NCBI GenBank assembly: GCA_025361565.1
Contig: JANYKN010000125.1
Location: forward strand, 95,171-159,170
From: Bacteroidota bacterium
GTDB lineage: Bacteria; Bacteroidota; Bacteroidia; Bacteroidales; NBLH01
Reading direction: 5' to 3'
DNA length: 64,000 bases
The position numbers were made by a program, and so were the translations under genes. The stretch's first letter is position 1. Each line of letters begins with the position of its first letter. The notes under the pieces are model-generated. The model searched no databases. It worked only from the letters and a program-made list of their open reading frames with translations, and was not told the DNA's origin. This document shows, piece after piece, positions 5,541 to 60,238 of the stretch.

Positions 5541-7322
5541 CTAATATTTAAAATAAAAATCCTTAGTTAAAGAAGTTGATTCCCAGGGAGTTTGTTTTCC
5601 ACCTGACTCAAGCAGTACTTTTTGCCTCACTTTTTTAAACATATCCTCAATTTGTAAATCGGATTGCTTAATATATTCGAGCAATGCTGAAGTATATAAA
5701 CCATTGCTACCTGAACCGTCCGAGGCAGTTTTGCCTGGCGAAGTGGCATATGCAATCAGAGAGCCTGACGGTGCATCCATAAAAGCCAAACCGCTCGATT
5801 CAAGGCCACGGCTCCAACTCCGAGCGAAAGGGTTATCTCGGCAAGCATCAAGTATAATTAAGTTTATCTTAGATTTGGCATCTTCCATCCTGGCCAAAAC
5901 GCGATCGGCCAAAACGCAATTGAATTCAACATCTCGTTCATTTTCCAATTTCGAATCAACAGGCACTAGATAATTAATTCCCTTGGCCTGAATGCCGTGT
6001 CCAGCATAAAAAAATAGGCCAACATCATAAGCCTTCAATTGTTCACCAAAATCATCAATCATTCTTTTCATGTCGTTTTGACTACAATTTTCACATTTCA
6101 ATACGGTGAACCCCAAACTTTCCAAGGCAGTTTTCATCGCTCTTGCATCATTCACTGGATTTGGAAGGGTTCCACCAAATTGGTAATTTGAATTTCCCAT
6201 GACCAACGCAAGGCGTTTTTGTGACTGATTGACAGGATTATCAACAACTTGCATGTTTGAATTTTGAATGGTAAATGATTTTTCGGCTGTGGCTCCTTTT
6301 GAGTCGGTTGCGGAAACTCTAATAATGTTTTCGCCATCATTCAATGAAATATCTGCATAAAAATAACCTGAATAATCAATTGTAGCAGTTCTACCATTGA
6401 TAGTTACGGCAGAAATTCCATCAGCATCCTTTGCATTGCCTGCAACCCTAATTGAGGGAATTTTCACAATTTTAAAACCTCTTTCAACAAGGGGTTCGGT
6501 TATTACAATTTCAGGTGGCGAATTTTCTACCACCGGAACGTCAGTATTTTTGGAGTAAGGTCCTTGGCTCAGACCTGAAATGTAAGCACCTTGATCCCTT
6601 AATTCTTGTATCTGTATGGAAGGAAAAACAGTACGTGTTCTCCACCATTGCTGAGTATAGCCAACACCTTTTGACATGACCAAGGCCCAAACCCCATTTC
6701 CATAGGTTAGGCTGGTAATATAATATCCTTGGTTCCAAAATTCGCTAATTTCTTGTTCGGGATAATAGGTGCGGGTGCGCCAAATCTGGCTAGTGAAACC
6801 ATTTCCTTTTGTCATAACCAGTGCCCATTTACCTTCACCATAAACCAAATTGGTAATATAATGACCTTTGTCCCAGTGTTCTTTTATTTCAGCCTCAGGG
6901 AAAATGGTTCTGGTACGCCAAATCTGGGTTGGTGGTCCCTGAGATAATTTACTCATCACCAGCCCCCAAACTCCATTTCCATAAGTTAAGTGGGTAATTT
7001 GATATTCTTTGGCCCAATATTCATCAATTTCCTTTTCGGGAAAATAGGTTCGGGTCCGCCACATTTGTTCAGAAAATCCAGTGCCTTTAGACATCACAAG
7101 AGCCCAATTTCCATCATTAAAGGTTAAATCGGTGATATAATAACCCAAATCCCAATCTACCTTAATCTCATTTTCAGGGAAATAAGATTTTGTTTCCCAT
7201 TTCTGATCCGTATAACCGGTTCCTTTGGACATAACCAGGTTCCAAACCTGACTTTGAGAAAAAAGGCTGAAAGAAACCAGGATAAATATCCAGGATCCAA
7301 CAGCCCTAATTATATGCTTCAT
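5541..7322 (-). CDS. Secreted caspase-like (C14) protease with five WALVMSKG repeats
   Basis: 593 residues. Signal peptide 1-22 (SWIFILVSFSLFSQ). Residues 27-250 are five tandem repeats of 46-47 residues starting at Trp27, 73, 119, 166 and 212, each built as W-x-LVMSKG-x-G-x-x-x-Q-x-WRTRT-x-FP-x-x-EI-x-x-x-W-x-x-G-Y-x-IT. These resemble the repeats (DUF7477) I recall from the C-termini of plant MUT9-like casein kinases. Residues about 268-353 look Ig-like. The caspase/metacaspase domain spans about 369-593 (RLALVMGNSNY onward), with catalytic His442 in FFYAGHG and Cys494 in DACRDNPF. Both catalytic residues are present, so an active cysteine peptidase, probably with Arg/Lys specificity as in metacaspases, is expected outside the cytoplasm. 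The substrate and the repeat ligand are unknown. Confidence 0.88.
   Translation of the reverse strand: MKHIIRAVGSWIFILVSFSLFSQSQVWNLVMSKGTGYTDQKWETKSYFPENEIKVDWDLGYYITDLTFNDGNWALVMSKGTGFSEQMWRTRTYFPEKEIDEYWAKEYQITHLTYGNGVWGLVMSKLSQGPPTQIWRTRTIFPEAEIKEHWDKGHYITNLVYGEGKWALVMTKGNGFTSQIWRTRTYYPEQEISEFWNQGYYITSLTYGNGVWALVMSKGVGYTQQWWRTRTVFPSIQIQELRDQGAYISGLSQGPYSKNTDVPVVENSPPEIVITEPLVERGFKIVKIPSIRVAGNAKDADGISAVTINGRTATIDYSGYFYADISLNDGENIIRVSATDSKGATAEKSFTIQNSNMQVVDNPVNQSQKRLALVMGNSNYQFGGTLPNPVNDARAMKTALESLGFTVLKCENCSQNDMKRMIDDFGEQLKAYDVGLFFYAGHGIQAKGINYLVPVDSKLENERDVEFNCVLADRVLARMEDAKSKINLIILDACRDNPFARSWSRGLESSGLAFMDAPSGSLIAYATSPGKTASDGSGSNGLYTSALLEYIKQSDLQIEDMFKKVRQKVLLESGGKQTPWESTSLTKDFYFKY
6573..7244 (-). 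repeat. Five 46-47-codon repeats in the caspase-like gene
   Basis: In-frame tandem repeats coding for the W-x-LVMSK units at residues 27-250. The fifth unit is the most divergent and lacks the EI-x-x-x-W end. The third has LSQGPPTQ in place of the Gly-rich turn. Confidence 0.85.
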
Positions 7323-16845: not shown

Positions 16846-19800
16846 TTACCAAATTCTAAAATCGAACTCCAAATTCTCTCTCCGGTAGGTTGGGTTCTGG
16901 CTGCCTTTGGTTAGTTTACTTACTGTTCTTGAAACATAATCTCTTAATTCTGAAATCATTATCACTCCATCTTTATTTAAGTCTGCTTTTTTTGAAATAA
17001 TGCCGTTTTTTAAAACATATGTAAAAACCCCATTTTTAGCTTCGCCGGTTTCATAGGCATATTCGCCCCCACCAGCTGACGAAATTACGGTTGAGCCAGT
17101 ACCATGGCGTATATCAGCAAACATTATCTTCATTAGTTCAAATGAATTCTGTGTGGTTATTTTTGCCCTGGATTCAAGTGCTGAAGCAGACCTAATATCA
17201 CGGCTAACGACAAACATATCATCATCATCATCATTATTTACTTCAGTAAATTCTTCTTCTTTGTCTACTTCTCCAGAATGACAAGCATCTATTATAATCA
17301 CCTTTTTTCGAGCAGGTATGCCATCAAACAAACCTTCGAGTTTATCATATCTAAGGGCTGTATTGGGTAGATTGTCAAGGTCAATTTCAGTGGTTGCCAG
17401 GTAATAGTTCAGTTCAGAATCAAGTACACCGTGCCCTGCAAAAAACAATATGACAACATCATCAACTTTTGTGTTATCAAGTTGAGATTTAAGCTTCAAA
17501 ACGTTGGCTACAGTGGCTTCCTTATTCAATACCTGTATTTCGTGTATTTCTCCAAAAACCTTGTTTTTACCATTTTTAAAAAGAGCAACAAGGTCTTGGG
17601 CATCCTTGGCGGCATATTCAAGGTTATAAACCGGGTTTTTATATTCCGATATTCCAATAGTGATTAAATACAAATTCGGTTTTGTTGGTTTGGTATCGTA
17701 TATAATTGAAAATGTTTCTTTTAGTGATTCGAGGCCTTGTTCATTTAAAGAAGAAACCTGAATTTTATTTGTTCCTTCTGAGAGTTTTATTGGACAATCG
17801 ACCGTAATATTTTTCATTTTTTTGTTGCGAACTGAATATCCGTCGGTTCCATATACTGGAACATCATTTACCCAAACATTAATCCTGTCGATATTTTTTA
17901 AATTGTCCCATGTATTAAGTTTGATACTAATCTCTCCATTTGTAGTGGTAATAGGAAATTCATCAATATTTACAATTTTTATTTCCGGAATATTTATTTT
18001 ACTACTTAATTCAATATTGGCAAATCCCATTTTCTGAACTCTTTTGGTATATGCTTTTTTGTAAGCTTCAATTTCTTGGGTACTTGAATATTTCAATTTT
18101 GAAAAAACTATATCAGGACGATTATATTTTAGATCGAACTGATCAAAGGTGTATAGCTTGTCCTTGTCAGTAAAAGCAATATAATTCATAGCTCCTTTGG
18201 TTGAATAATAATAATTATCGGGATCAATATAGATAAAATCATCTTCGCCAAAGGCAGCCAGACTAACCAACAAATCACCATTATTCAGGTCCCAGAACCT
18301 AATCAGTCCATCATGTCCTGATGTGGCAAGGTAATTATATGGCATGTTGAATTTTATTTCCGAAATTGTCGAAGAATGTCCGCTTGCTGTTTTGAAAATT
18401 CTTTTTTTCGTATTGATATCAACAAGATAAATATTTCTAAGTTCATCAGTATAAGAAATCAATTTATCATCAGGGCTAAAGCTTACAGGAGTATTTCCCT
18501 TAAATTCAGTTACTTCCGACATATCAATAGGATTAAAAAGCTTTATCGACTGACTATTCTCAGTAACTAAATAGATATATTTTCCGTTGGAACTAAATCC
18601 TCCTGTATTATATTTGTCGTCAAGTGTGAATGAATTTGTCTGTTCATTGGTTTCGAGGTTCCACAACTGACATTCAGTTTTTCCTGATTTTGTGTATAAA
18701 AGTGCCAACAAATCTTTTCCTGAAGCACTCAATGTTTTAAAATACAAATCTCCATCTATAACAAAAAGTTTTTTTTGATTTAAACCATTTGCCTTAAGCG
18801 TTTTATCTTTTGAAACTGAAGATATGTCAATGTTGCTAACACTTGTTTTAAAAATTTCTTCGCGCTCTCTTAACTTTTGCTTGTTTAAAAAAGAATACTT
18901 TTGTGAATGGGTACCTTTGCTTTTAAACAATATTATATTAGAAGTATCTTTTATTATAAATGACTGATATTCTGCACTTTTATGGCTTTTTAAGGTTATC
19001 GTTTTCATTCCCTCCTTTAATTTCCAGATGATTAGAGCTTCTTTGGACTCATAGTCCTCCGAATATTTATCTTTTTGGTTTAATGATTCCTTAACAAGAA
19101 TTTGAGTTGTATTAATTTTTTCATTTGCTCTATCAGCTGTATATTTATACCTTAAATACTTTTCGAGAGGGTTAAGTTTATTGGGCTCCTGAAATAAAAC
19201 TTTACCTTTTTGATCTAAATTCCAAATTCTGAAACTCCCATCATTATAAGCAATAAACATCAATTTACCATTTTCGGAAAATGAAATGGAATTGATTCGA
19301 TTTGCTCCTCCTTCCATTGATTTAACCAAGGCATGTTTTTTTAAATCCCAAATAAGTATTCTTCTATCTTTGCCAGCACTGGCCAAAAACCTGCCTTTAG
19401 GCTCCAAGGCAAGTGCCCAAACCTCATCGGTATGTGCTTTTAAAATCTCTTTTCTTGCACCGCTATTTCTATCAAATACATATATCAGGTTGTCACGGTT
19501 AGCGCCTATGAAATATTCAGAATTTAATGCAATTGAATTAAAGGAATTCCATGAAACATCAGAACTTATATTGAAAGCTCTTTTGAGCAAAGAGCCGGAT
19601 ACCGCTTTTCTTTTAATGTTGCCCCCCTGGCCGGCAGAAAACACAAACTTGCCATCTTCATCAAACAATACATCATTTGAATGAGTTAAAATCCTTTTTT
19701 CAATTTTATCTTTTAATAAATCATAGATACTAACCTTTCCTTTTTTCTTTCCGCCAAAAGCAAGATATTTACCGTCACTGCTATAATCTAATGCATTATA

Positions 19801-20268
19801 ACCCTGTTTTGCAAACTTGCCAATTTTTTTGAAATTATCTGTATTTAGATTAATAAGATAAACAGAATCTGAACCACATGCCAATTCTTCGCCATTTGGG
19901 CTAAAACATACTGATTTAACCGGATAAGTAAAGAAATTATAATCTTTAATTAATTTCCCTGATGGATACTCCCAAATTTTAACCGTGTTATCGTCACTGG
20001 CGCTGGCAATTAGATTTTTGGATGGATGCACAGACAATGAATTAACCGTTTTGATATGCCCGCTAAAAATATTCATTTGCCTGGAAGAAACCATATCCCA
20101 CAAAATTACTTTGCTGTCCTCTCCTGATGACACTAAATATTTGCCATCAGGAGTAAATACCAAATCTGTAATTCCGGCAGAATGTCCGGTTTGTATACAA
20201 AGTTTTTGAGCAAATAGAATCTGGCTAAACAGCATTATAAAGATAATATTAAGTATTCCAGTTTTCAT
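16846..20268 (-). CDS. Secreted WD40-repeat caspase-like (C14) protease
   Basis: 1140 residues. Signal peptide 1-20 (IIFIMLFSQILFAQ). WD40 beta-propeller repeats fill about residues 25-340 (GHSAGITDLVFTPDGKYL, GHIKTVNSLSVHPS, AHTDEVWALALEPKGRFL, each closing in a WD-like pair). A second, more diverged propeller region ends with GHSSTISEIKF and GHDGLIRFWDL. An Ig-like segment around 770-850 leads into the caspase domain (YLITIGISEYKNPVYNL onward), with catalytic His946 in FFAGHG and Cys996 in DACHSG. A run of Asp (1013-1017) follows the Cys, and an EF-hand-like loop (Asp1096 to Glu1107, DLNKDGVIMISE) lies near the C-terminus, suggesting Ca2+ control. It follows the lipoprotein gene by 79 bp. 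Confidence 0.9.
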   Translation of the reverse strand: MKTGILNIIFIMLFSQILFAQKLCIQTGHSAGITDLVFTPDGKYLVSSGEDSKVILWDMVSSRQMNIFSGHIKTVNSLSVHPSKNLIASASDDNTVKIWEYPSGKLIKDYNFFTYPVKSVCFSPNGEELACGSDSVYLINLNTDNFKKIGKFAKQGYNALDYSSDGKYLAFGGKKKGKVSIYDLLKDKIEKRILTHSNDVLFDEDGKFVFSAGQGGNIKRKAVSGSLLKRAFNISSDVSWNSFNSIALNSEYFIGANRDNLIYVFDRNSGARKEILKAHTDEVWALALEPKGRFLASAGKDRRILIWDLKKHALVKSMEGGANRINSISFSENGKLMFIAYNDGSFRIWNLDQKGKVLFQEPNKLNPLEKYLRYKYTADRANEKINTTQILVKESLNQKDKYSEDYESKEALIIWKLKEGMKTITLKSHKSAEYQSFIIKDTSNIILFKSKGTHSQKYSFLNKQKLREREEIFKTSVSNIDISSVSKDKTLKANGLNQKKLFVIDGDLYFKTLSASGKDLLALLYTKSGKTECQLWNLETNEQTNSFTLDDKYNTGGFSSNGKYIYLVTENSQSIKLFNPIDMSEVTEFKGNTPVSFSPDDKLISYTDELRNIYLVDINTKKRIFKTASGHSSTISEIKFNMPYNYLATSGHDGLIRFWDLNNGDLLVSLAAFGEDDFIYIDPDNYYYSTKGAMNYIAFTDKDKLYTFDQFDLKYNRPDIVFSKLKYSSTQEIEAYKKAYTKRVQKMGFANIELSSKINIPEIKIVNIDEFPITTTNGEISIKLNTWDNLKNIDRINVWVNDVPVYGTDGYSVRNKKMKNITVDCPIKLSEGTNKIQVSSLNEQGLESLKETFSIIYDTKPTKPNLYLITIGISEYKNPVYNLEYAAKDAQDLVALFKNGKNKVFGEIHEIQVLNKEATVANVLKLKSQLDNTKVDDVVILFFAGHGVLDSELNYYLATTEIDLDNLPNTALRYDKLEGLFDGIPARKKVIIIDACHSGEVDKEEEFTEVNNDDDDDMFVVSRDIRSASALESRAKITTQNSFELMKIMFADIRHGTGSTVISSAGGGEYAYETGEAKNGVFTYVLKNGIISKKADLNKDGVIMISELRDYVSRTVSKLTKGSQNPTYRRENLEFDFRIW

Positions 20269-32530: not shown

Positions 32531-35500
32531 ATGAATAATCACAGATCCAAAATAATCACTTTTACACTATTTATAATCATTTCGTTAAATTCTTTTGGAC
32601 AGTCGCTTGGAGATTATGGCTCTGTAGCTTCTTCAAACTGGAGTTTAAATACTACCTGGAAAATATGGGATGGCTCAGGATTTAATGCAATTGCTGCAAC
32701 TGCTCCTACATCTTCAGATAATGTCTACATACAGGGTGGAAATACTGTAACAATTGATGTTGATGTAACCTGCACAAATTTAACAATCGGATTTAGTGGT
32801 ACTGCGGGAGTATTGGAATTTGAAACCTCAAGCCAGCATAACTTGACTATTTCTGGTTCATTGATAATCAATTCGGGCGCTTCTGCAGGAATTTTACAGA
32901 TATCCGCTCTCGATCAGCCTGTCCATTCAATTTCTATTTCTGGAAATCTTACAAATTCAGGAACCATCAATTTATGGAGAACAATAAATCAAAAAGCAAA
33001 TATTTCGATCAATGGAAATATTATAAGCGGAAATGGTGACTTTACATTTAATAATCTAACAATGGGTGGAGGAACCGTTTCCTGTTCATCTACTTCAATT
33101 ATTAACCTATTTGGAAATTTTACCGATAATTCAACAACATCTTTTACAGCAACCAATGGAACTTTTAATTTTATATCTGCTACCACTCAAAATATCAATG
33201 GAACTTCAACAGGCACAACCACTTTAAATAATTTTACAGTTGGAAACTCAGATGCAACAAACTTAATTTTAAACCGTGATATCAATGTTTCTTCATCACT
33301 TACATTAAACACAACTGGTGAAACAATCTCTTTGAATGGCTATAATCTGACAGTCAATGGAAATTATATAAGAACTTCAGGGACTATTCGTGGAAATACC
33401 AATTCAAACCTAAGCTTTAATGGACCTTCAGCAGCTCAAGCATTGGTGCTAAGCACTGATTTTAATTTAAAAAATCTAACTTTCTCTTGTGTATCAGGAA
33501 TTGGTGGATCCTATATTCTCGGTTCGGCAATCACCATAATCAATAATTTTTCATTATCAGGAAATTCATTCGAAACAGTTACCTTGGATGTTGGAACTAA
33601 TAATTTTATTGTAAATGGAACCTCTGGAATATCCGGTTATGGTATTTTTAATGATACTGATTTAACAGGTATAAACCGATTTATCGGAGCAGTAACAATT
33701 GGCGCAAATGGACAATGGGCTACTGCAAACAACCCTGCTTTTGAATTCCGCGGTGGATTGACCTTTAACGGAAGTTCATTTGTTTCAGGAACCGGCAATT
33801 ATTCATTTACTTCAAATGCACAATCTATATCAGGATCTGCATCATTGGCTATCAACAACATCATTATTGCAGGAATTACCCTAACAAACACCAATACTGG
33901 CGGTATAACTGTAGATGTTTTTTCAGGAACCGGAAATCTGACGAATGGTTTAAATGGAAGACTGAATTTAAATGCTTTAAATACAATTACGATAACCGGA
34001 ACAGTTGATTTTATTACAAATAACAACATCGTAAATTATTTACCAAATTTAGCCCAAAACATTTATACTACTACCTATCGTAATTTACAAATTAGCGGAG
34101 GAGGAACAAAATCGTTGGTTAATTCAATAATGGTAAATGGAATCCTTACCCTAAATACCGGTGCGCTTTCCATTGGAAACTATACGCTGACACTTAATTC
34201 GACCATTTCCTATGGAACAGGAACTTTTACTGGTGGCGGAACCTCCAATCTTATTATCAATGATATTGGATCAGCCGCTGCTGCAAATATATCTACAATA
34301 AGCTTAAACAATTTTACACTAAACCGCGCCAATGGTGTAACTTTATCCGGAGCAGTAACTATCGGTGGAACAACCACTTTAACACTTGGCACTTTATCAA
34401 TTGGAGCTAATACACTAACCTTAAATGGAAATCTAAACTATGGAACTGGAACAATTGTTGGTTCAACATCATCCAATTTAGTAGTTGGTGGAGCAGCTGT
34501 TCCTTCAAATCTTACTTTACCAGCAATAACTTTAAATAATTTTACAATTAACAGAGCTAACGGTGTTACTTTGACTGGCAATTTAATCACTGGTGGTGCT
34601 GGTGCCGGAATTATAACTTTAACCAACGGAATTATCAATACAAATGGAAACACTGTAACTTCAGACAATGCAACTACTGCCAGTATTAATTCAGGTAGCC
34701 CAACCTCATATGTACAAGGTTTGTTTAGGCGGAAGTTTATTCCAGCAATGACAGCCGGAACATATTATTTTCCCGTTGGCAAATCATCATATAACAGCTT
34801 GAGCATAATTACTACAATTGCAACAACAGGTTCGGGCAGTACATATATTTCAGCTGAAGATTTTGATGTGGATGAAGGTGGAACTGCAGGTTTTGGAATT
34901 ACAAATGTCAATGTTGTGGCTCGATACTGGCAACTTCAATCTTCTTCAGGTACGGTAGTTATAGACAATTCCTCAACTGTTCAAATTTATCAAACAGGAT
35001 TGACTAATGGAACACATTGTGTGGCTCAAAGCAACTCAAAAACAGGTACTTATACCGATAAAGGAGGAACAGTTGCCGGGAATGTTATTTCAACTTCTTA
35101 TAACGCTGCAATTGGCTATGTTATAGACTATTCCTTTGTTTCTTCGTCAAGCAGTACTTATTTAATTATTGGAACAAAAATTTCACTAAGTGGTACTATT
35201 TTAGTTGGTGCAAGCCAAAATATCAAAAAACTTCGCGAAATATCCTGGTTATTAAATCGATATCCTTTATTATCAGATGTCATTTTTGAATTGCAAGATG
35301 ATTATGATGGTAGTGACGAATTTAGCGTTTCTCCGTATATTAATACTCCTATTGCTTTCAACCAATTTCCTGCAACAGTGCCAGTATATTCCGCTATTAT
35401 TAGCCTAGCGCCGGGAGTTACAACCCCTAAAATAACATCAGGAGACCCTGGTAGTGGCAATTCTTTAATTATACTAAATGGAGTTGATAATATAACTTTT

Positions 35501-38500: not shown

Positions 38501-41500
38501 ACTGCATCATCTTTCCCTGCACTTGCACCGGTTGATAATTATGCATATGAAGGGAATTTACCTGCTACGATTTACATTAATAATGCCGGCTTTAGTGGTG
38601 GTGACAACACAAATACACTTCTATCGCTTACAGGCTCAGGAGGTTTGTTTCAGATGATGAATTGTTTATCTATCAATAAAAATATAACCGTGATTATTGA
38701 AACCAGCCATACAGAGCCTGGAACTTTTGGGTTAAAACAATGGATCGAAAATCCGGTTGGAAGTAATTTCACATTAAAAATTCAACCACATGATGCAACA
38801 GCCCATACTTTAACATGTTCAAATCCAAAAGATTTTATTCGATTCGAAGGTTGCGACAGGGTTACAGTAGATGGAAATTTTAGCGGAAGTGGTCGTTATT
38901 TGGTTTTTGTCAATACATCAACTAATTATGCAGTCCTTCAATTTGCCAATGATGCAACAAATAATACGTTTCAAAATTGCGAGTTTCAAGGTGGCACAAC
39001 TACTACACCTAAAGGGGTAATCTGGTTCGATCTTGGTGCAACAACTGGAAATGATTATAACACCATAACCGGTTGTAAAATAGTCAATTATTCGATCTAC
39101 AATCCCGACAATTCGATTTTTTCATTGGGCTCACCAGGAACGGCATCAAATTCGAATAATACCATTACAAACAATGAGATAGCCAATTTTACAATTAATG
39201 GAATCAACATATCCTCAGATGGAAATGGAGATGGCTGGAATATTAGTGGAAATAGTGTTTATTACAATCCTTTGCCACTTTCAAATGCTCCAATTGCAGG
39301 AGGAATACATACAGGTATAAGCGTGCAATCAGGAAATAGGCAGACGATATCAAATAATTTTGTTGGTGGAAAAGCCGTAAATTGTGGAGGAACGGCATGG
39401 ACACATGCTTATAATATTGCCACCCGTGCATTTGACATCAATGTGGGTGCTGGCGCAGCCTCAACAATAACTAACAATACAATACAAAATTTCAATTTAA
39501 CATCAAACGGAGGTTCAACATTTTTTACCGGAATTTATATTGCCGGAGGAAATACTGCTACTATCAATGGAAATATAATTGGACATGTTGCAACTGCAAA
39601 CAGTATTATCAATGCTGGCGCAGGTACTACAGCAATTAATGTTGTTTCGTTACAATCCGGATTGAATATTACCAACAACTTAATCTCTAATATCAGGGCT
39701 ACTGCCAATTCAACTTTCAGAGGTTTGACAATGAATGTTGGAAATGCCTCTCTTACTTCTATTCAAGGAAACACAATACAAAATATTGCTTTAACAGGAG
39801 GAAATACTTCCACTTTATTTTATGGAATTGAATTAAATGGTGCAAATAATGGGAAGGTTGATATTGGAAGTTTAACTGGTAACACAATTACAGGAATTAC
39901 AACGAATGGAATTGCTGTGACCAATCCTATTAGGGTTGTTTCAACATCAACCGGACATATCATCAATAACAATTCCATAACAAATATTACAGCTAGTGCA
40001 AATGCTGCATTTCAGGGAATTACTCTAAGTGTTGGAACAGCTGCAGCAACTTCGGTACAAAATAATACCATTCAATCAATTACAGTGGCAGGAACAGGTA
40101 CAAGTAGTTTTGTCGGGATTTATGGGGTGCTCGGTCTTTACAATATAGGAAATATTTCTGCCAATACTATAGGGCATGCTTCAACAACAAACAGCATTCA
40201 ATTTGCAGGAACAGGAACCTCATATGGCATAAATGCGGTTTCACTGGTAGCCAACAATATCATTTCAAATAATATCATTGCGAATCTTACCAATAGTAGT
40301 TCTGCATGTACTTTTTATGGTATTTATGGAAGTTTTGCTAATACAACTTTATCATCAATTCAAAACAATACCGTTAGAAATATTACACTTTCTAATGCTG
40401 GTGCTTCCAATCTTTATGGGATTTGGATAAACGTAGGTCGAGTTGATATTGGCGCCACAGCGGGTAATCAAATTGGTAATCCAACAAACACAAATAGCAT
40501 CTCTTTTAATGGTACAGGAAATTGCCGTGGAATTTATTTGTCCGTCGATCCTGCAACTATTTCGACTATTCAAAACAACAATATTCAAGGTTTTAATTTA
40601 TCAAACATTGGAGGTACAGAACGTTTCGATGGAATTTATGTAAATGCCGGCTTGGTTAATATTGGAAATGTTGGAGGTAATACAATTGGCCATGCAACAA
40701 CAGTCAATAGTATTACAAACAATGGTTCGGGAGGAACCAATGGAATTTATATTACATCTGCCACTCCTGTAAATAATCAGGTAATTTCAAACAACTTAAT
40801 TTCGAATATTACAGCTACTTCAAATTTTCCTTTTCAAGGTATATATCTTAATGTTGGAACGACTGGTGCAACTTCGATACAAAATAATACTATTCAATCA
40901 ATAACAGTATCTGGGACTGGTGCAAGTAGTTTTACGGGAATATATGCAAATGCAGGTTTGTTTAATATAGGAAATATAACAGCAAACACAATTGGTCATA
41001 CATCAACAGCAAATAGTGTTCAATTTTCAGGTACAGGAACTTCTTGTGGAATTTATGCTACATCCTTGGTAGCCAACAATGTAATTTCAAATAATATAAT
41101 TGCGAATTTTACCAATAATAGTTCTGCCTGCACTTTTTATGGTATTTACGGAAATTTTCCAATTACAACTTCATCATCATTACAAAACAATACCATCAAG
41201 AATATTACTCTTTCCAATAGCGGACCTTCCAACTTTTCAGGTATTTGGATAAATGCCGGGCGCGTTGATGTTGGAGCTACAACCGGCAATCAAATTGGTG
41301 ATCCACTCAACATCAACAGCATTTCATTCAATGGAACAGGATATTGTCGAGGAATATACCTTGCTGTTGATCCTGCAACTATTTCAACTATTCAAAACAA
41401 TAAAATACAAGGTTTTAATTTATCAAATATTAGTAGTACAGCACGTTTTGATGGAATTTATGTAAATGCTGGTTTAGTAAATATTGGAAATGTTGGCGGC

Positions 41501-44500
41501 AATTCGATTGGTCATGCAACAACAGTAAATAGTATTACTAATAATGGCATAGGTGGAACCAATGGAATCTATGTTACATCGTCAACTCCTGTAAATAGTC
41601 AGGTAGTTTCAAACAATCTGGTTTCAAATATTATAGCTACAGCAGATGCTCCATTCCAGGGTATATATCTAAATGTTGGAACTGTTGGTGCAACTTCGGT
41701 TCAAAACAATAGCATTCAATCAATTATAGTTTCTGGAACTGGTGCAAGCAGCTTTGCCGGGATTTATGGTGCAGCCGGTCTTTATAATATCGGCAATACA
41801 ATGGCAAATACAATTGGACATAATTCAACAGCGAATAGCATCCAACTTTCAGGGACTGGAACTTCATATGGAATTTATGCTGCTTCTACGGTAGCTAACA
41901 ATAACATTTCGAACAATTTAATAGCTAATTTTACCAATAGCAATTCTGCTTGCACGCTATTTGGCATTTACGGAAGTTTTTCAAATACAATTTTATCATC
42001 ATTGCAAAACAATACTATTCGTAATATTACACTTTCAAATGCCGGTCCTTCAAATTTTTCAGGAATTTGGATAAACTCCGGGCGAGTTGATATTGGTGCC
42101 ACATCCGGCAATCAAATAGGAGATCCAAATGATGTAAATAACATTTCATTTGGTGGAACCGGAAATTGCAGAGGTATCTATGTGGATGGGGATGTAACAA
42201 CCATTTCAACAATTCAAAAGAATAATATTCAAGGATTTAATCTTTCCAATATTACTGGAAATGAACGCTTTGATGGAATTTATATAAATTCTGGTCTGGT
42301 AAATATTGGAAATTCTGCAGCAAATACAATTGGACATGCCACAACTATAAATAGTATCACCAATATTGGTACAGGTGGAACTTACGGAATATATTTATCA
42401 ACAGGAGCACTAGATAACCAGGTTGTTTCAAATAATCTGATTTCAAATATTACAGCAAATGGAAATGCCCCATTTCAAGGTATTTATTTAAATGTTGGAA
42501 CAGCTATTGCTTCGACAGTACAAAATAATACTATTCAATCAATTCACTCGGCAGGAAATGGTGCAAACGGATTTTCGGGTATTTATGGAAATGCTGGCCT
42601 GCTTAATTTGGGTAATGTTACCGGAAATAAAATAAGCAATATCGTCTCTTCAGGTACTGGTAATCTACAGGGAATGAGCATTATTGATGTATCTTCAGGT
42701 TCATTGATTAAAAACAATATTATTTCCAATCTTATCGGAAATGACAATATAAGTGGTATTTATGTAAATTCGGGCAATTTCTTTACAATCTCTGATAATA
42801 CAGTTAACAATTGCAATATCCCTAATACAAATAATCCCAATTTTGTGGGTATAGAATTAAGTGCAGTAAACGCTTCCAATTCAACGCTATTACAAAACAA
42901 TAAAATTGAAAATATAATTATCGATGGTTCAACAGCAACGTTCAAAGGAATTTTAATAACTGCTGGTAAAGTAGATTTAATAGGCAATTTTGTAGGCCAC
43001 GCAACCAATGCTAATAGTATTTCCTGTGCAGGAACTGAAACACATGGCATGGAAAATAATTCGTCTGATGTGGTTTCAATTCAGAATAATTCAATAGCGA
43101 ATTTAACATCAACGAATTCAAGTACTTCAGGCGTTTTATCAGGAGTTTTACATTCGGGAACAGGCATTGGAACAATTTTAGGCAACACAATTCACGATTT
43201 AAATTCTACTAGTGGAAATGTAGATTTATCAACCGGAATCATTTCAGGACAGGGAATTGCAGTCGTTGGAAATTCCGCTTCAACTATTTCATCGAATACT
43301 ATCTATCAGATTTCTGGAAATGGAACTGCTGCTTCGAATATTGCCGGAATTTCAGAAAATGCACCAAATATTGAAATAACAAAAAACATTATTTATGATA
43401 TTCGGAATAATTCTTCTAATGCAAATGCAACTGCAAATGGAATTGTTTTAAAAGCAATTGCATCGGCAAACGGAGTGAATAACAATATGATTGCTATTGG
43501 TACTGATGGTGAAAATCCAGTATATTCAGGTATATATTTACCTGTTTCGGATGCAGTTACAAAAAACATTTATTACAATTCAATAAATATCAGAGGAAAT
43601 TCTACCGGTGCAAATAATTCGTATGGATTTATATTAAAAAATCCAGCCTCATCAGTTAATATCAAAAACAATATTTTTTACAATTCAAGAACAGGAACCG
43701 GAAATCATTTTGCTATTGGTAATGCACCAATTGGAGCATTGTGGGATTGTAATTATAACAATATCTTTTCATCAAATTCTTCAACTATTGGATATTGGGG
43801 GTCAACGCCATACAGTTTAACCAACTGGCAAACAACATCAAGTAACGATGCAAATTCCGTTTCAGAAGCAGTTTCTTTTGCCAATGCTTCAATAGGAAAT
43901 TTACATCTCAATATTGCAAGCAGTTGTGGAGCAAACGGTGGTGCAACTCCGATTTTAATTATAACTGATTTTGATGGTATGCTGAGAAATACGACAAGGC
44001 CTGATATTGGTGCCGATGAATTTACTCCAACCGGAGGAAATTCAAAAGATTTCTGGACTGGGGCAGTTTCAACTAATTGGGAAACTGCTGGAAATTGGGG
44101 TTGTGAACTTGTACCAGCTACTACAACCGATTTAACTATTCAAAATGTTACAAACGATCCAATTATAAATTCTAATGTAGTTATTAAAGCGTTGACAATC
44201 AATGCAAATTCTTTTCTTTCCATTAATCCGGGCAATTCATTGACTTTAACTGGAGCATTTATCAATAATGGAACGTTAACAATTGAAACACCAACTGCAG
44301 AAGGCGGAGCTACCGGATCGTTTATCGATAACGGCACAATTTCAGGAACCGGACAGTTTATTGCTAAACGATTTATAAATGCCAATCAATGGCACGAAGT
44401 ATCATCGCCAATTAATAACGCTTCAAGTGCAATATTTACGCGAAGTCATCCATATGGAAATTATAATGCAAATTTATATTTCTATAACGAGACTTTGGAT

Positions 44501-46015
44501 TTAGATGGAAATCCAGGAACAAATCCAACTGGTGCAGGTGCATTTGATAGTCAAAAACTTTCAACCGGCTGGGCTTTTGCTCAAAACGGAGTTGGTGGTG
44601 CAGATGTAACACTTATTAACAATAAAGGGTACATGTTCTATACCAATGTTAATCAAGTTATTACCTTTACTGGAATTCCTAATACAGGAAATTTTGATGC
44701 AACAAACCTGACTTATACCAACAATGACCCTAGAACAGGAGTATCACCTAATTTATATGACGGTTGGCATTTGCTAGGCAATCCATATCCTTCATCAATA
44801 AATTGGAATTTAATCAAAGATGATCAAACGGTCAATATTGAAGATGGTGTTTATATCTGGGATGCTACAGGTTATTCTGGATACAAAGATGGTTTGCAGG
44901 TTATGCTTGGAAACCTCACAAATATAATTCCACCAATGCAGGCATTTTTTGTTCATGCAAATGCAAATTTGGCAAGTGTTCAAATCCGAAACGAACATCG
45001 CACGCACGGCGCACCGGAATATCTGAAATCTAGTGTATATAAACCAAATTATCTGAAAATTAAAACATCGGCAAATGGATGGAATGATTACTTCATCACT
45101 CATTTTGAGGCAGATGCAACAACTGAATATGATGGAGCATATGATATGGTTCGTATGTTTTCAACAGATCCAACTATCCCACAACTTTATTCTCAATCTT
45201 TAATTTTAAAAGATCCATTGGTTTTGAATTGTTTGCCAACCGAATTACTAAATAACTTTGCCGACACTTTGGGTTTGGCTATTGGCAATGCCGGTAAATG
45301 CTCATTTACAGTTGACGAAATTCATGATTTCGCAAATATAAATGTAGTTTTAGAAGATAGAAATTTAAACACTTTCACAAATCTAAAAAACATACCTGAA
45401 TATCATTTTGAGTTTGAAGGTGGAAATATAAAAAACCGTTTCGTAATACATTACGAAAAGAATACAGCTCCAAATTTAAATCTGCCAATGCAGGATGCTC
45501 ATATTTTGGTAAATGAAAATTTCAATTATCAAATACCAGGCAACACTTTTGTAGATAATAACATTGGAGATAGTTTAAGCATTACAGCCAAAATGAAAAA
45601 TGGCGATAATTTGCCGCAATGGCTTAGTTTTGCAAACAATACTTTTACCGGAAGCACGAATATCATTGGAGAATATCAAATACAGGTAATTGCAACCGAT
45701 AATCAGGGAGCATCCACAAATACTGATTTTTCAATATTTGTTACCGAATTAACCAATATAATACCGGTTTCTGAAAATGAAATTTCAGTATATCCAAACC
45801 CATCAGATGGAAAATTCAAAATTGATTTAAAAAAGAATGGTATTTCAACCAATTGGAATATAGATGTCAAAGACATAAGTGGTAAAATAGTTTACCATGA
45901 CATTTTAACTAACACACAAGAACACTTTGATTTGTCAACTTTACCTGCTGGAAATTATTTTATTGAACTTCAATCTGGAGAAAACACTATTATTAAAAAA
46001 ATGATTATCAAATAG
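32531..46015 (+). CDS. Giant T9SS-secreted beta-helix surface protein (4494 aa)
   Basis: Signal peptide 1-24 (FTLFIIISLNSFGQ). Residues about 28-720 are beta-rich repeats of Asn/Thr/Ser/Gly (LTLNGNLNYGTGTIVGSTSS-type strands). YVQGLFRRKF near 726 and FPVGKSSYNS form a domain typical of Bacteroidota surface proteins. The first right-handed beta-helix block runs from about 1000 to 1850 (ends VNIGADEG), an FN3-like segment 1863-1980, the second block about 2010-3830 (ends PDIGADEF). Then come a strand domain with WETAGNWGCELVP, a WHLLGNPYPSSINW segment near 4078, one cadherin-like Ig domain (4313-4410) and the T9SS type A tail (about 4415-4494, SVYPNPSDGKF to IIKKMIIK). Probably an adhesin or polysaccharide-binding stalk. 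No enzyme motif was seen. It is followed by a terminator and a paralogue. Confidence 0.93.
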   Translation: MNNHRSKIITFTLFIIISLNSFGQSLGDYGSVASSNWSLNTTWKIWDGSGFNAIAATAPTSSDNVYIQGGNTVTIDVDVTCTNLTIGFSGTAGVLEFETSSQHNLTISGSLIINSGASAGILQISALDQPVHSISISGNLTNSGTINLWRTINQKANISINGNIISGNGDFTFNNLTMGGGTVSCSSTSIINLFGNFTDNSTTSFTATNGTFNFISATTQNINGTSTGTTTLNNFTVGNSDATNLILNRDINVSSSLTLNTTGETISLNGYNLTVNGNYIRTSGTIRGNTNSNLSFNGPSAAQALVLSTDFNLKNLTFSCVSGIGGSYILGSAITIINNFSLSGNSFETVTLDVGTNNFIVNGTSGISGYGIFNDTDLTGINRFIGAVTIGANGQWATANNPAFEFRGGLTFNGSSFVSGTGNYSFTSNAQSISGSASLAINNIIIAGITLTNTNTGGITVDVFSGTGNLTNGLNGRLNLNALNTITITGTVDFITNNNIVNYLPNLAQNIYTTTYRNLQISGGGTKSLVNSIMVNGILTLNTGALSIGNYTLTLNSTISYGTGTFTGGGTSNLIINDIGSAAAANISTISLNNFTLNRANGVTLSGAVTIGGTTTLTLGTLSIGANTLTLNGNLNYGTGTIVGSTSSNLVVGGAAVPSNLTLPAITLNNFTINRANGVTLTGNLITGGAGAGIITLTNGIINTNGNTVTSDNATTASINSGSPTSYVQGLFRRKFIPAMTAGTYYFPVGKSSYNSLSIITTIATTGSGSTYISAEDFDVDEGGTAGFGITNVNVVARYWQLQSSSGTVVIDNSSTVQIYQTGLTNGTHCVAQSNSKTGTYTDKGGTVAGNVISTSYNAAIGYVIDYSFVSSSSSTYLIIGTKISLSGTILVGASQNIKKLREISWLLNRYPLLSDVIFELQDDYDGSDEFSVSPYINTPIAFNQFPATVPVYSAIISLAPGVTTPKITSGDPGSGNSLIILNGVDNITFDGQVSSNKWWTFRNTRTLATVGPTFQFINDAQSNKLTYLSIEGQNITAPANGAAAGTVNFYSSAGTNGNDNNTISYCDIRENTASSVSPVVAIFADATAVAYTNDGTTISNCNIYNFYNAGLASTGIWTNRNCDSWTISGNSFYQTSARNMTAAIANRAIYSRVGSNIITSNFIGGSAPLCGGTAWTTTGSFNTQLFGIDVITTGFNLDIQNNTITNFDISTAYATASAPGAWAGINISGTGNANIGNTTKNIIGSSTLTDVIFVKPGNGAIVCGISSSGTGTIQIINNEIGGITNASTTVANGGTVGAITTSGANGNYTITGNLIGSTTIANSIKAGVPAFTTAACTVFGINNSASGTLVLNGNTIQNLRSNSIGGATTAYGITNIGTSASITIGTNLSPNIISTLTASSTGAGASSCYGIASSAGIGSTNINYNTINTLQSNSTTATTNTFAINSTGVSVISINISNNTLTGLTANNTAAGTSTCYGINNAAGTAGITLDGNSLTSNISNSTTGSSIMYAIQNSGTGTVSIQNNSIDNFTGSGTGNGGTTRGIISSAGTNTIQNNIITNLTSLSTQVGTGSTAQMVGLLLTANNDNQKINRNTIYTLKNTTGAATAIYLTGIYSSCTGLNQEIGRNLIHSFQTASTGARQVGIQVDGTLSSASGVIHNNIIRLGMYGVGATATDLATIYGICGIYNTSNADNSGYYYNSIYIGGTGATTDASYCLYKSLPTNDNIRNNIFVNARSGSVGLGMGNFAFDLESPANVICDYNIYKASGTNGKLASLLNITKNTLRDIQVFVPGQNLHCGVGDPNYVDATGGILAISLKVQGSTPAYGTGIAISTINTDYEGDARATIGAVNIGADEGIYTMDASVDIFSPVFSYTPIPNQLLTAGTISVFVTITDQGMGLDASTYKPRMYCRKSSTLPDIGHQNWAIARFSEPFSVVGNIYEFQIDPANIAPINSNDIIEYFFVAQDLANTPNISYSKFDAATPLFTNTQTASSFPALAPVDNYAYEGNLPATIYINNAGFSGGDNTNTLLSLTGSGGLFQMMNCLSINKNITVIIETSHTEPGTFGLKQWIENPVGSNFTLKIQPHDATAHTLTCSNPKDFIRFEGCDRVTVDGNFSGSGRYLVFVNTSTNYAVLQFANDATNNTFQNCEFQGGTTTTPKGVIWFDLGATTGNDYNTITGCKIVNYSIYNPDNSIFSLGSPGTASNSNNTITNNEIANFTINGINISSDGNGDGWNISGNSVYYNPLPLSNAPIAGGIHTGISVQSGNRQTISNNFVGGKAVNCGGTAWTHAYNIATRAFDINVGAGAASTITNNTIQNFNLTSNGGSTFFTGIYIAGGNTATINGNIIGHVATANSIINAGAGTTAINVVSLQSGLNITNNLISNIRATANSTFRGLTMNVGNASLTSIQGNTIQNIALTGGNTSTLFYGIELNGANNGKVDIGSLTGNTITGITTNGIAVTNPIRVVSTSTGHIINNNSITNITASANAAFQGITLSVGTAAATSVQNNTIQSITVAGTGTSSFVGIYGVLGLYNIGNISANTIGHASTTNSIQFAGTGTSYGINAVSLVANNIISNNIIANLTNSSSACTFYGIYGSFANTTLSSIQNNTVRNITLSNAGASNLYGIWINVGRVDIGATAGNQIGNPTNTNSISFNGTGNCRGIYLSVDPATISTIQNNNIQGFNLSNIGGTERFDGIYVNAGLVNIGNVGGNTIGHATTVNSITNNGSGGTNGIYITSATPVNNQVISNNLISNITATSNFPFQGIYLNVGTTGATSIQNNTIQSITVSGTGASSFTGIYANAGLFNIGNITANTIGHTSTANSVQFSGTGTSCGIYATSLVANNVISNNIIANFTNNSSACTFYGIYGNFPITTSSSLQNNTIKNITLSNSGPSNFSGIWINAGRVDVGATTGNQIGDPLNINSISFNGTGYCRGIYLAVDPATISTIQNNKIQGFNLSNISSTARFDGIYVNAGLVNIGNVGGNSIGHATTVNSITNNGIGGTNGIYVTSSTPVNSQVVSNNLVSNIIATADAPFQGIYLNVGTVGATSVQNNSIQSIIVSGTGASSFAGIYGAAGLYNIGNTMANTIGHNSTANSIQLSGTGTSYGIYAASTVANNNISNNLIANFTNSNSACTLFGIYGSFSNTILSSLQNNTIRNITLSNAGPSNFSGIWINSGRVDIGATSGNQIGDPNDVNNISFGGTGNCRGIYVDGDVTTISTIQKNNIQGFNLSNITGNERFDGIYINSGLVNIGNSAANTIGHATTINSITNIGTGGTYGIYLSTGALDNQVVSNNLISNITANGNAPFQGIYLNVGTAIASTVQNNTIQSIHSAGNGANGFSGIYGNAGLLNLGNVTGNKISNIVSSGTGNLQGMSIIDVSSGSLIKNNIISNLIGNDNISGIYVNSGNFFTISDNTVNNCNIPNTNNPNFVGIELSAVNASNSTLLQNNKIENIIIDGSTATFKGILITAGKVDLIGNFVGHATNANSISCAGTETHGMENNSSDVVSIQNNSIANLTSTNSSTSGVLSGVLHSGTGIGTILGNTIHDLNSTSGNVDLSTGIISGQGIAVVGNSASTISSNTIYQISGNGTAASNIAGISENAPNIEITKNIIYDIRNNSSNANATANGIVLKAIASANGVNNNMIAIGTDGENPVYSGIYLPVSDAVTKNIYYNSINIRGNSTGANNSYGFILKNPASSVNIKNNIFYNSRTGTGNHFAIGNAPIGALWDCNYNNIFSSNSSTIGYWGSTPYSLTNWQTTSSNDANSVSEAVSFANASIGNLHLNIASSCGANGGATPILIITDFDGMLRNTTRPDIGADEFTPTGGNSKDFWTGAVSTNWETAGNWGCELVPATTTDLTIQNVTNDPIINSNVVIKALTINANSFLSINPGNSLTLTGAFINNGTLTIETPTAEGGATGSFIDNGTISGTGQFIAKRFINANQWHEVSSPINNASSAIFTRSHPYGNYNANLYFYNETLDLDGNPGTNPTGAGAFDSQKLSTGWAFAQNGVGGADVTLINNKGYMFYTNVNQVITFTGIPNTGNFDATNLTYTNNDPRTGVSPNLYDGWHLLGNPYPSSINWNLIKDDQTVNIEDGVYIWDATGYSGYKDGLQVMLGNLTNIIPPMQAFFVHANANLASVQIRNEHRTHGAPEYLKSSVYKPNYLKIKTSANGWNDYFITHFEADATTEYDGAYDMVRMFSTDPTIPQLYSQSLILKDPLVLNCLPTELLNNFADTLGLAIGNAGKCSFTVDEIHDFANINVVLEDRNLNTFTNLKNIPEYHFEFEGGNIKNRFVIHYEKNTAPNLNLPMQDAHILVNENFNYQIPGNTFVDNNIGDSLSITAKMKNGDNLPQWLSFANNTFTGSTNIIGEYQIQVIATDNQGASTNTDFSIFVTELTNIIPVSENEISVYPNPSDGKFKIDLKKNGISTNWNIDVKDISGKIVYHDILTNTQEHFDLSTLPAGNYFIELQSGENTIIKKMIIK
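40031..42493 (+). repeat. Three super-repeats of 822, 822 and 819 bp inside the first giant gene
   Basis: Units start at 40031, 40853 and 41675 (each at the Val-Gly codons of a NVGT/SVGT turn followed by SVQNN-type strands), with the start of a fourth at 42494. Each codes for 273-274 residues and contains three copies of an N-x-IG-x-x-x-x-x-NSI signature spaced 101, 71 and 102 codons. Protein identity is high, while codon third positions differ often, so the duplications are not recent. A diverged half unit precedes at about 39700-40030. Confidence 0.9.
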
Positions 46016-57090: not shown

Positions 57091-57109
57091 TTTATTATAC
57101 AAATTGATT

Positions 57110-57162
57110 TGCCACAAATGCACGAATAAAATCTATAATTCGTGCATTTGTGGCATTTTTTT
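57110..57162 (+). terminator. Strong terminator after the second giant gene
   Basis: An 18-bp perfect stem (TGCCACAAATGCACGAAT at 57110-57127 with its complement at 57138-57155), a 10-nt loop and TTTTTTT. It lies inside the possible N-terminal extension of the next frame, which argues against translation from 57104. Confidence 0.92.
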
Positions 57163-57226
57163 ATGGAATAAATGCAAATCTCTCATCTATTCTTTAAATT
57201 TACAAATAGAAACTAATAATCTTGCT

Positions 57227-60200
57227 ATGCGAAACGTCCTTTTGACCCTTATTTTTTCAATTACGCTTGTTCTTGGTTCAAGTTCATTCATTGAAAATCG
57301 AAAACAATCAAACTCTGATCATAATTTAAACATATATCCTGAAAAGGAAATATATAGTGCAATCCCCGCCCCTCCTGATACTGTCCCTACACTTAAAGTA
57401 GTTGGCGATGATAATAAAAAAGTAACTCTTCGGATGAATGAACTAATTATTCAGGTTGAAGTGCTCGGTAATATTGCCCGTACCACCATGGAAATGAATT
57501 TCGAAAACAAAACAGACAGGATTTTGGAAGGTGAACTGGATTTTCCTTTGGGCGAAAATCAGACAGTTACGCGCTTTGCATTAGAAATAAATGGAAAAAT
57601 GCGCGAAGGTGTTGTAGTTGAAAAACAAAAAGGCCAGCAGGTTTTCGAAGCTGTTGTTCGTAAAAATATTGACCCTGGCTTATTGGAAAAAACCAAAGGA
57701 AATAATTTCAAAGCCCGCATCTACCCAATTCCTTCAAATGGAAATAAACGGATAATTATAGCGTATGAACAAGAATTGATTGGAACAAAAACTGGCAATT
57801 TATATCTTCTGCCACTTCAGTTTAAAGATAAAATGGATAAATTTTCATTAAAAGTTGAAGTTTTTAAACAGAAAGTAAAACCAATTCTTGAAAACAATGA
57901 ACTCGTAAATTTTGAATTTACCGAATGGAAAGATTCCTATATTGCCAAACAGGAATATACTAATTACATTGCCAATAAACAATTGGGTTTTGTGCTTCCA
58001 GAAACTAAAAATATTTACTCAACATTTATAGAAAAGTCTGATAAACAAATAAATGACGATTATTTCTATATCAATTTAAAACCAGAAAAATTTACTCAGA
58101 ACAAAAAACTCCCAAAATCAATATGTCTACTTTATGATGTTTCCACTTCATCTGAGAACAAAGACACGTTAAAGGAAATAGAGGTTTTGGATAAATATTT
58201 TAAGAAAATAAGCAATCTCAAAGTTAATTTAGTCACCTTTAGCAATGAAATCAATTCAAATACAAATTTTATAGTTAAGGACGGAAATTGGGAACAGCTA
58301 AAAAAACAGTTTCTTAATCCGGGTTACGATGGTGCTACACAGTTCGGAAGCCTTGATCTATCGAAATATATTTGTGATGAATTTATATTGATTTCAGATG
58401 GGATTTCCAATTTTGGAAAATCTGAGATATTGACACAAACAACACCGGTAATGGTTATCAGCTCTACTCAATCAGCTGATTTCTCATATCTAAAATTTAT
58501 AGCATCAGGTACGGGTGGTCTGTATATAAATCTGAAAAATACCACAACAGAACAAGCGCTGACTCAATTAACTGAACAATCCTATCATTTTATTTCTGCA
58601 GAGTACGATAAAACTGTAATTTCGGAGCTTTTCCCTTCAAAACCTACCGATTTTAAAACCAATTTTTCAATTGCAGGTCAATTAAAAAGCAATAGTGCAG
58701 AAATTACTTTAAATTTTGGATTTGGAAATAAGGTTTACAAATCGATAAAAGTAGAATTGGATAAATCAGAAATATTTTCAGAAACAAATCTGGTACAAAG
58801 AATTTGGGCACAAAAGAAAATTGCTGAATTGGATATGTTGTACGAAAAAAACAAAGAAGAAATTATCAATCTTGGTAAAAAATATTCTATAGTTACACGA
58901 AATACATCATTGATAGTTCTTGATCGGCTTGAAGATTATATCCAATACGAAATAGTTCCGCCAGTTGAATTACAAAAAGAATATTTCGAAATTATAGAAA
59001 ATAAGAAAAAAGAGAAAACAGATCTTGAAACTGCACATATTGAACAAGTTGTACAATATTTCAATGCACGAGTTGAATGGTGGAATACCAAATTCTCTAA
59101 AGAAAAACAGACAACTCAAAATGATGTCAATTTTGTTGCGCCATCAATTGTTGATAGTTTAGTTATGGAAGAAAGTGAATTAAGTACTTCAGATGAAGTG
59201 GCATCCGAAAATCTTGCTAAAGAAGAAGAAGTTATGATAGAAGATGTTGGAGGTTCCCTTGGTCCGGTACGTGAAAATAATTTAAATGAAACAAAAAACA
59301 AGGACAAAGAAGAAGAGGAAGGTAGAATTTCTACTATTCAGCTAAATGCTTGGGATCCTGAAACTCCATATATGACAAAAATAAAAAATGCAAAAGCCGA
59401 AAACCAATACAATCAATATTTAGAAGATAAGAAAGAATATGCATCAACGCCTTCTTTCTATCTTGATGTGGCCAATTATTTTGTTAAACAAGGAAATAAA
59501 AAGCTAGCTCTGCGGATATTATCAAATATTGCTGAAATGAATGTCCAAAACCACGAATTGATGAGGATATTGGCACATCGGCTTGAACAATTAGAATATT
59601 ACGATTTAGCGATTTCAGTATACGAAGAAGTTGTGAAAATAAGAACAGAAGAGCCTCAGTCTTATCGTGATTTATCATTATGCTTAGCCGCTGATGGTCA
59701 ATACCAGAAAGCACTCGACATCCTTTATGATGCAATAAAAAAACCATGGGATGGAAGATTTCCAGAAATTGAAGGCATAATGGCCATTGAAATGAACCGG
59801 ATAATCAGTAAAGCCGGTAATAAAATTGAAATCAGCAAAATAGATAAACGCTTGATTAAAGATATGCCAGTGGATGTGCGGATTGTTTTGAACTGGGATA
59901 CCAACAATTCAGATATGGATTTATGGGTGACAGACCCTTACGGCGAAAAATGTTATTATTCCCATGCACTTACTTACACAGGTGGCAGGATATCACGCGA
60001 TTTTACTCAAGGATATGGGCCCGAAGAATATTTAATAAAAGGCGCATTACCTGGCAAATATATTATCCAAGCTAATTATTATGGCTCAAGCAGTCAGCGA
60101 ATTACAGGACCAACAACCATTTATCTCGAATTATATACCAATTATGGCAAGAAAAACGAAAAGAAAGAAACCATAACCATGCAATTAACAAGTGAGGCAA

Positions 60201-60238
60201 GAGTAGTAGATATTGGGGTTTTGGGATTTGGTAAATAG
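57227..60238 (+). CDS. VIT and vWA domain protein with TPR-like helices and DUF2135
   Basis: 1003 residues from the ATG at 57227. The frame is open back to 57104, but that stretch holds the previous gene's terminator, and [21 protein letters not shown] gives a proper signal peptide. A VIT domain (about 55-182, [22 protein letters not shown]) is followed by a von Willebrand A domain (about 297-455) with the metal-site motif DVSTS (D-x-S-x-S). A charged linker with EEEE-type runs follows, then TPR-like helices (about 740-840, [26 protein letters not shown]) and a C-terminal DUF2135 domain (about 882-995, [25 protein letters not shown]). Such proteins are exported and probably bind other proteins through the vWA domain; the role is unknown. 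Confidence 0.9.
   Translation: [1003 protein letters not shown]

Follow-up and report, generated by a model that had tools for sequence, protein, structure and literature searches.

Right-handed beta-helices are known from the adhesin PfbA, the HK620, Sf6 and Pam1 tailspikes, NosD and the PL6 alginate lyases, and such a helix rises by about 4.8 Angstrom per rung. In Bacteroidota, type A cargo of the type IX secretion system (T9SS) carries a C-terminal sorting domain, Por_Secre_tail. Here we analysed a stretch of 64,000 nucleotides (the window) from contig JANYKN010000125.1 of a Bacteroidota bacterium (assembly GCA_025361565.1, order Bacteroidales), which holds an open reading frame (ORF) of 4494 amino acids with three tandem copies of a super-repeat unit inside a long predicted beta-helix. 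Our reading is that an old tandem duplication of whole coils lengthened a surface beta-helix rod exported by the T9SS, to which we assign a probability of roughly 0.65. Among the titles listed in searches of open-licence papers, none dealt with this protein or with the tripling of coil blocks in beta-helix proteins of the T9SS.

The tripled array and its coil hierarchy

The earlier note, made on the sequence of the window, had placed three units in frame within the giant ORF, and their starts and sizes of 274, 274 and 273 residues were both confirmed (Table 1), with the self-comparison showing the direct repeat of 822 bp. The direct-repeat search gave spacings of 822, 822 and then 819 bp to a shorter fourth copy. 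At an offset of 274 residues, 403 of 548 positions in the protein were identical; when the array was shuffled 1000 times, no shuffle exceeded 80 of 547. Tandem Repeats Finder, which covers periods up to 500 bp, reported no repeat. The description of the copies as near-perfect has to be given up, as the units are 74-80% identical in protein (unit 3 is 75.5% identical to unit 1 and 74% to unit 2) and 75.5-79% in DNA (79% for units 1 and 2, 75.5% for 1 and 3, 77% for 2 and 3). This divergence also makes it extremely improbable that the array is an artefact of assembly: although the genome (6.76 Mb) lies in 199 contigs, the units differ at 170-201 bases where a false copy would be near identical, and the frame is open throughout on a contig of 266 kb.

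When the protein was cut at every G-I-Y-like turn, the array resolved into 24 consecutive coils of 31-37 residues, eight per unit, followed by a 25th intact coil. The order of motifs in each unit is A B C A B A B C, and the signature N-x-IG-x5-NSI is the mark of the B coils. It is exact at seven of the nine expected sites (the first in unit 2 reads NSV and the second in unit 3 reads NNI) and occurs twice beyond the units, at residues 1314 and 2348. The signature spacings of 101, 71 and 102 codons reported before are correct and correspond to ABC, AB and ABC modules, while three exact signatures in every unit are not present. In pairwise comparison, each of the 24 coils had its nearest counterpart at the same position of another unit, and mean coil identity was 69-80% at the same position versus 22-56% at different positions. 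The eight-coil block is therefore older than the tripling, so that modules duplicated first and the block later. Three levels of repetition are thus present instead of the two previously proposed, namely the coil, the AB or ABC module, and the eight-coil unit ABC-AB-ABC. The 25th coil is the beginning of a decayed fourth unit.

Age of the units, selection and exchange

For the ratio of nonsynonymous to synonymous divergence (dN/dS), the earlier note had regarded a value near 1 between units as fatal to its view of an old duplication held by selection. The measured ratio was 0.13-0.18 across the unit pairs, with dN of 0.11-0.16 and dS of 0.84-1.11 (NG86 and YN00). Thus the duplications are old and the protein has been kept by selection, as had been proposed. 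In agreement, the pairs show 55, 67 and 72 amino-acid changes, whereas random placement of these DNA changes gave averages of 109, 125 and 122, and every observed count fell below the minimum of 500 random placements. The third codon positions vary freely, as described earlier, and hold most of the DNA differences (104 of 170 for units 1 and 2, 116 of 201 for 1 and 3, 106 of 192 for 2 and 3). Among fourfold sites, 45/108, 53/94 and 44/98 differ, where saturation would be about 0.64. Maximum-likelihood estimates of dN/dS were erratic, with a dS of 2.4 for one pair and 0.2 for the others, and were set aside. For within-protein copies in general, PMC5120217 reports purifying selection overall (dN/dS below 1), together with faster evolution than in orthologues via relaxed purifying and positive selection.

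Since in-frame tandem repeats can recombine, the array might be imagined as a contingency locus, the copy number of which often changes between strains through recombination among units. The agreement of units 1 and 2 is indeed uneven along the unit when all sites are taken (permutation p 0.033, with the window variance matched by 95 of 2000 shuffles). However, only first and second codon positions show it (p 0.004), whereas third positions (p 0.64) and synonymous third positions (p 0.78) do not, a pattern that suggests uneven protein divergence and not exchange. The longest identical DNA tracts between the units measure 20, 14 and 15 nt; none was longer than chance, as 1802, 1991 and 1967 of 2000 codon shuffles reach the observed length. 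Together with the DNA divergence of the units, such short tracts argue against frequent recent exchange, and we consider a contingency locus very unlikely. Recombination or gene conversion between units, including a suspected mosaic of units 1 and 2, was likewise not accepted as recent exchange, given the short tracts and the flat third positions. As a separate observation, the identical tracts between units (40031-42493) are shorter than in most codon shuffles, perhaps because variable sites are evenly spaced along the coils.

Predicted fold, export and the adjacent paralogue

AlphaFold2 predicted stacked coils in one continuous parallel beta-helix, both for unit 1 (predicted local distance difference test, pLDDT, 90.4; predicted template modelling score, pTM, 0.92) and for units 1 and 2 joined as in the gene (pLDDT 90.7, pTM 0.92). 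The alignment behind the first model had 19 rows, of which the window supplied three and the 19 relative loci described below supplied 16; that behind the second had ten, two of them from the window and eight from relative loci. The beta-helix claimed in the earlier note is thus supported as a prediction. VIA-align was used to re-examine Foldseek's own match list. For one unit it aligned 402 chains, 316 of them with Z of 8 or more, the best being BT_1002 (Z 17.2, root-mean-square deviation (rmsd) 3.0, 218 residues aligned), and PfbA gave Z 16.7. For two units 375 chains were aligned, 308 with Z of 8 or more, and the Pam1 tailspike was the best (Z 24.6, rmsd 3.2, 401 aligned). Among the matches listed, similarity to solved beta-helices ranged from Z 15.8 to 24.6 over 189-404 aligned residues. 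A profile of the unit family matched pectin lyase A weakly (E 0.0022), and internalin B (E 0.26) and CirpA1 (E 0.54) more weakly still.

The closest solved folds include the carbohydrate-active BT_1002, the HK620 and Sf6 tailspikes and the PL6 alginate lyases, plus PfbA, and every unit has three conserved N-x-IG insertions, one in each B coil. Both would suit an array of repeated ligand (e.g. glycan) binding sites, the value of which would be multivalency and not length. This explanation is nevertheless rather unlikely: a similar fold does not show function, Asn, Thr, Ser, Gly and Ile abound in the unit whereas charged residues number just 8-13, and Pfam calls no enzyme family. A scan of the whole 4494-residue protein against Pfam-A at E up to 1, in which the HMMER filters discard most matches with E above about 0.1, returned just Por_Secre_tail and a sub-cut-off DUF3244, hence no pectate-lyase-like or PL6 model. 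The NCBIfam choice-of-anchor Q domain gave a sub-cut-off match (E 0.06) at residues 3798-3831, beyond the array. A second internal repeat was seen in the N-terminal part of the ORF at 34166-34573 (residues 546-681), with an offset of 76 residues and 32 of 60 positions identical.

The giant ORF is assigned to the type A cargo of the T9SS by its C-terminal sorting domain, which scores 55.6 bits with PF18962 (cut-off 27) and 45.2 bits with TIGR04183 (cut-off 23). The host translocon was checked by SprA, of which the genome encodes one (2675.8 bits, cut-off 200). The sorting domain and SprA support the earlier claim that the protein is secreted, and the rod would be displayed at the cell surface. 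In the whole genome, 67 of 69 sorting-domain matches exceed the cut-off.

The adjacent ORF P0002 is a paralogue that resembles the giant ORF in being collinear with it on either side of the array, at 32-41% identity, and in having the same sorting domain. Residues 1309-2609 of the giant ORF align to P0002 residues 1037-2288, and residues 3209-4404 to 1984-3229; the two alignments overlap at P0002 residues 1984-2288, which hold a few diverged coils of the array kind. Unlike the giant ORF, P0002 has no block repeat, is shorter over the array region, by about 900 residues when the full spans covered by the aligned segments are compared, and carries putative immunoglobulin-like (Ig) domains towards its end. 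A fragment from a genome of the same genus, L045, falls about 760 residues short of the giant ORF over the corresponding region; it is 51% and 37% identical to P0002 in two long segments and 27% in a third, and 28-34% identical to the giant ORF. In identity scans by offset, neither P0002 nor L045 showed a chain of repeats that reached 150 residues.

When the 24 coils were removed, the alignment score rose from 1653 to 1933 with P0002 and from 1499 to 1776 with L045; with one coil retained, the scores were 1937 and 1784. As a control, 72 sliding removals of 821 residues each gave medians of 1708 and 1585, and 6 (P0002) and 9 (L045) of them beat the removal of the array. The six best control removals start at residues 2401-2581 for P0002 and 2341-2461 for L045, overlapping the array. 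When gap extension was made cheap, 10 (P0002) and 14 (L045) of the 72 beat it. The extra length of the giant protein lies in the array-bearing coil region, with imprecise edges. The suggestion that such repeats set stalk length stands in so far as the rod is longer than in P0002 within these edges, whereas a benefit of the length is presumed.

Under the reading that we favour, coil modules duplicated first to give the eight-coil block ABC-AB-ABC, and the whole block then duplicated into three tandem copies. The units are predicted to stack end to end as one continuous beta-helix, each copy adding eight rungs, so the array, with 24 rungs that each rise by about 4.8 Angstrom, would be about 11 nm long. 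At the surface the rod may act as a spacer or adhesion rod projecting the distal part of the protein, and selection on the fold would maintain it. A more specific version, which we put forward only tentatively, regards the locus as a natural experiment on how long a rod can be: of two adjacent giant beta-helix paralogues that are otherwise collinear, one would have gained a large in-frame extension in three steps (coil, module and eight-coil block), with the whole-coil register under selection.

Several points weigh against the favoured reading. Foldseek alone, run against the PDB and viral models, returned nothing below E 0.001 and low TM-scores (best for the unit, E 0.0033 and TM 0.13), and the rod is without any domain called by Pfam. 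AlphaFold2 has a documented bias here, since PMC11795689 reports that it over-predicts beta-solenoids for perfect repeats; the same paper reports that four families of diverged repeats were modelled alike by every method tried. The divergence of our units favours the beta-helix prediction without proving it, and the concern is lessened but not removed. With cheap gap extension, the full protein scored higher than the array-less one (2075 versus 2037 for P0002, 2033 versus 1907 for L045), so part of the gain from removal is saved gap cost. The removals that score best start as much as 160 residues ahead of the array, so the extra length is not exactly 24 coils. Length may have been lost in P0002 and L045 instead of gained in the giant ORF. 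Finally, surface display, the function as a rod and any benefit of length are what we infer. An exact 24-coil insertion relative to P0002 had been tried as a description and was dropped, as part of the gain is gap cost and the earlier-starting removals fit as well or better.

Table 1. Coordinates of the giant ORF, its repeat array and the adjacent paralogue (positions in the window).
Feature	Position	Strand	Remarks
ORF, 4494 aa	32531..46015	+	signal-peptide-like start (by eye); beta-helix predicted over a long stretch; T9SS sorting domain at the C-terminus
Diverged A- and B-like coils preceding the array	39437..40030, residues 2303-2500	+	partial match, 47%, to positions 1-148 of the unit
Super-repeat unit 1, 274 aa	40031..40852, residues 2501-2774	+	coils A1 B1 C1 A2 B2 A3 B3 C2 of 33, 37, 31, 33, 37, 34, 37 and 32 aa
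Super-repeat unit 2, 274 aa	40853..41674, residues 2775-3048	+	eight coils as unit 1; 80% identical to unit 1
Super-repeat unit 3, 273 aa	41675..42493, residues 3049-3321	+	eight coils as unit 1, final coil one residue shorter
25th coil, A1-like	42494..42592, residues 3322-3354	+	61-67% identical to A1 coils
PF18962 T9SS type A C-terminal sorting domain	45788..46009, residues 4420-4493	+	E 6.6e-15, above cut-off
Paralogous ORF P0002, 3519 aa	46531..57090	+	collinear either side of the array; putative Ig (He_PIG) domains near the end; T9SS sorting domain

Relatives and comparison with known systems

A search of genome contigs with the unit alignment, which may omit records of the same genome, gave 19 loci whose best segments are 33-47% identical to the units. 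By title, one of them comes from Ignavibacteriae and one from an uncultured bacterium, and the rest come from Bacteroidales or other Bacteroidota. At E up to 1e-5, unit 1 had matches in 6 of 60 genomes including its own (5 of 59 others), the other matches being weak. At E up to 1e-12, the unit alignment matched 3 of 393 genomes of the order including its own (2 of 392 others), with at most six candidates per genome scored among the matches listed. No relative with the same 274-residue array was found in the genomes and loci searched.

We then considered 23 unit-matching proteins of at least 1000 residues, a sample picked by similarity to the unit and not at random, from which the window proteins and L058 (a repeat of L048) were excluded. 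Identity scans by offset were applied, and to count as a multi-coil duplication a repeat had to span 150 residues or more, with an offset likewise no smaller than 150 and not a multiple of some shorter period. By our reading of the scans, such duplications occur in 12 of the 23 (L046, L056, L062-L066 and L069-L073), and L047, L059, L060 and L067 show only shorter periods. Like the array, the twelve contain coils of types A and B (QNNTIQN, NIG..GNTIG) as well as large internal duplications, but they differ from it in unit size, order and copy number, with duplications of about 773 residues in L064, 564 in L063 and L065, and 785-797 in L066. Between copies in these relatives dN/dS was 0.09-0.36, with one pair undefined. 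Judged from these sequences, block duplication is an ordinary mode of growth in the related giant proteins.

The tandem duplication of 564 residues in L063 (ORF from 7979) and L065 (ORF from 7412) is informative on age. Its first copies are 72% identical between the two loci and its second copies 74%, compared with 64-66% between first and second. The copies cluster by position, not by genome, and the duplication is therefore older than the split of the L063 and L065 genomes, both of which have retained both copies. The second copy of L069 is likewise 70% and 73% identical to the second copies of L063 and L065, versus 64% and 61% to the first, and its first copy, as cut, is 45-50% identical to all other copies. 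Separately, the L064 ORF from 8204 contains a super-repeat of about 773 residues, larger than the 274-residue unit, in at least three and probably four copies of 46-61% identity.

These relatives bear on neutral growth, by which blocks duplicate occasionally and in-frame additions of whole coils are tolerated, with selection acting against misfolding and not for length. Multi-coil duplications of many sizes in about half of the sample, and low dN/dS between copies as a general property, are what such growth would produce. The persistence of the array copies to dS near 1, and the retention of both 564-residue copies in L063 and L065 since before their split, speak for maintenance, but are compatible with neutral length too. 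Neutral growth is thus a serious possibility, if short of probable. Should the tentative version of a natural experiment be true, rod length in this group would evolve in quantised coil-block steps that can be read from sequence. Under the favoured reading, a single gene shows how a very large surface rod can grow, with whole-coil block duplication keeping the solenoid register; the adjacent paralogue without block repeats serves as a built-in comparison, and related proteins of other Bacteroidota show the same process at other sizes.

Among the other genes of the window, 57104-60238, directly downstream of P0002, encodes a VIT-domain protein with weak TPR matches and DUF2135; its listed TTG start may be too early, and a Met stands at residue 42. 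Two caspase-domain proteins are encoded at 16846-20268 and 5541-7322, both on the minus strand, one with WD40 propellers and the other with DUF7477 and a glucodextranase-B-like domain.

Compared with known systems, the array is not a new kind of system. It shares a predicted continuous helix with PfbA, the HK620, Sf6 and Pam1 tailspikes, NosD and the PL6 alginate lyases. It differs from the solved beta-helices in that the protein is much longer, its coils of 31-37 residues follow a fixed ABC-AB-ABC order, its units recur at 74-80% identity, and Pfam calls no enzyme family. With the Por_Secre_tail type A cargo of Bacteroidota it has in common the C-terminal sorting domain and a genome encoding SprA, and it is set apart from this cargo by its size of 4494 residues and its tripled block of coils.

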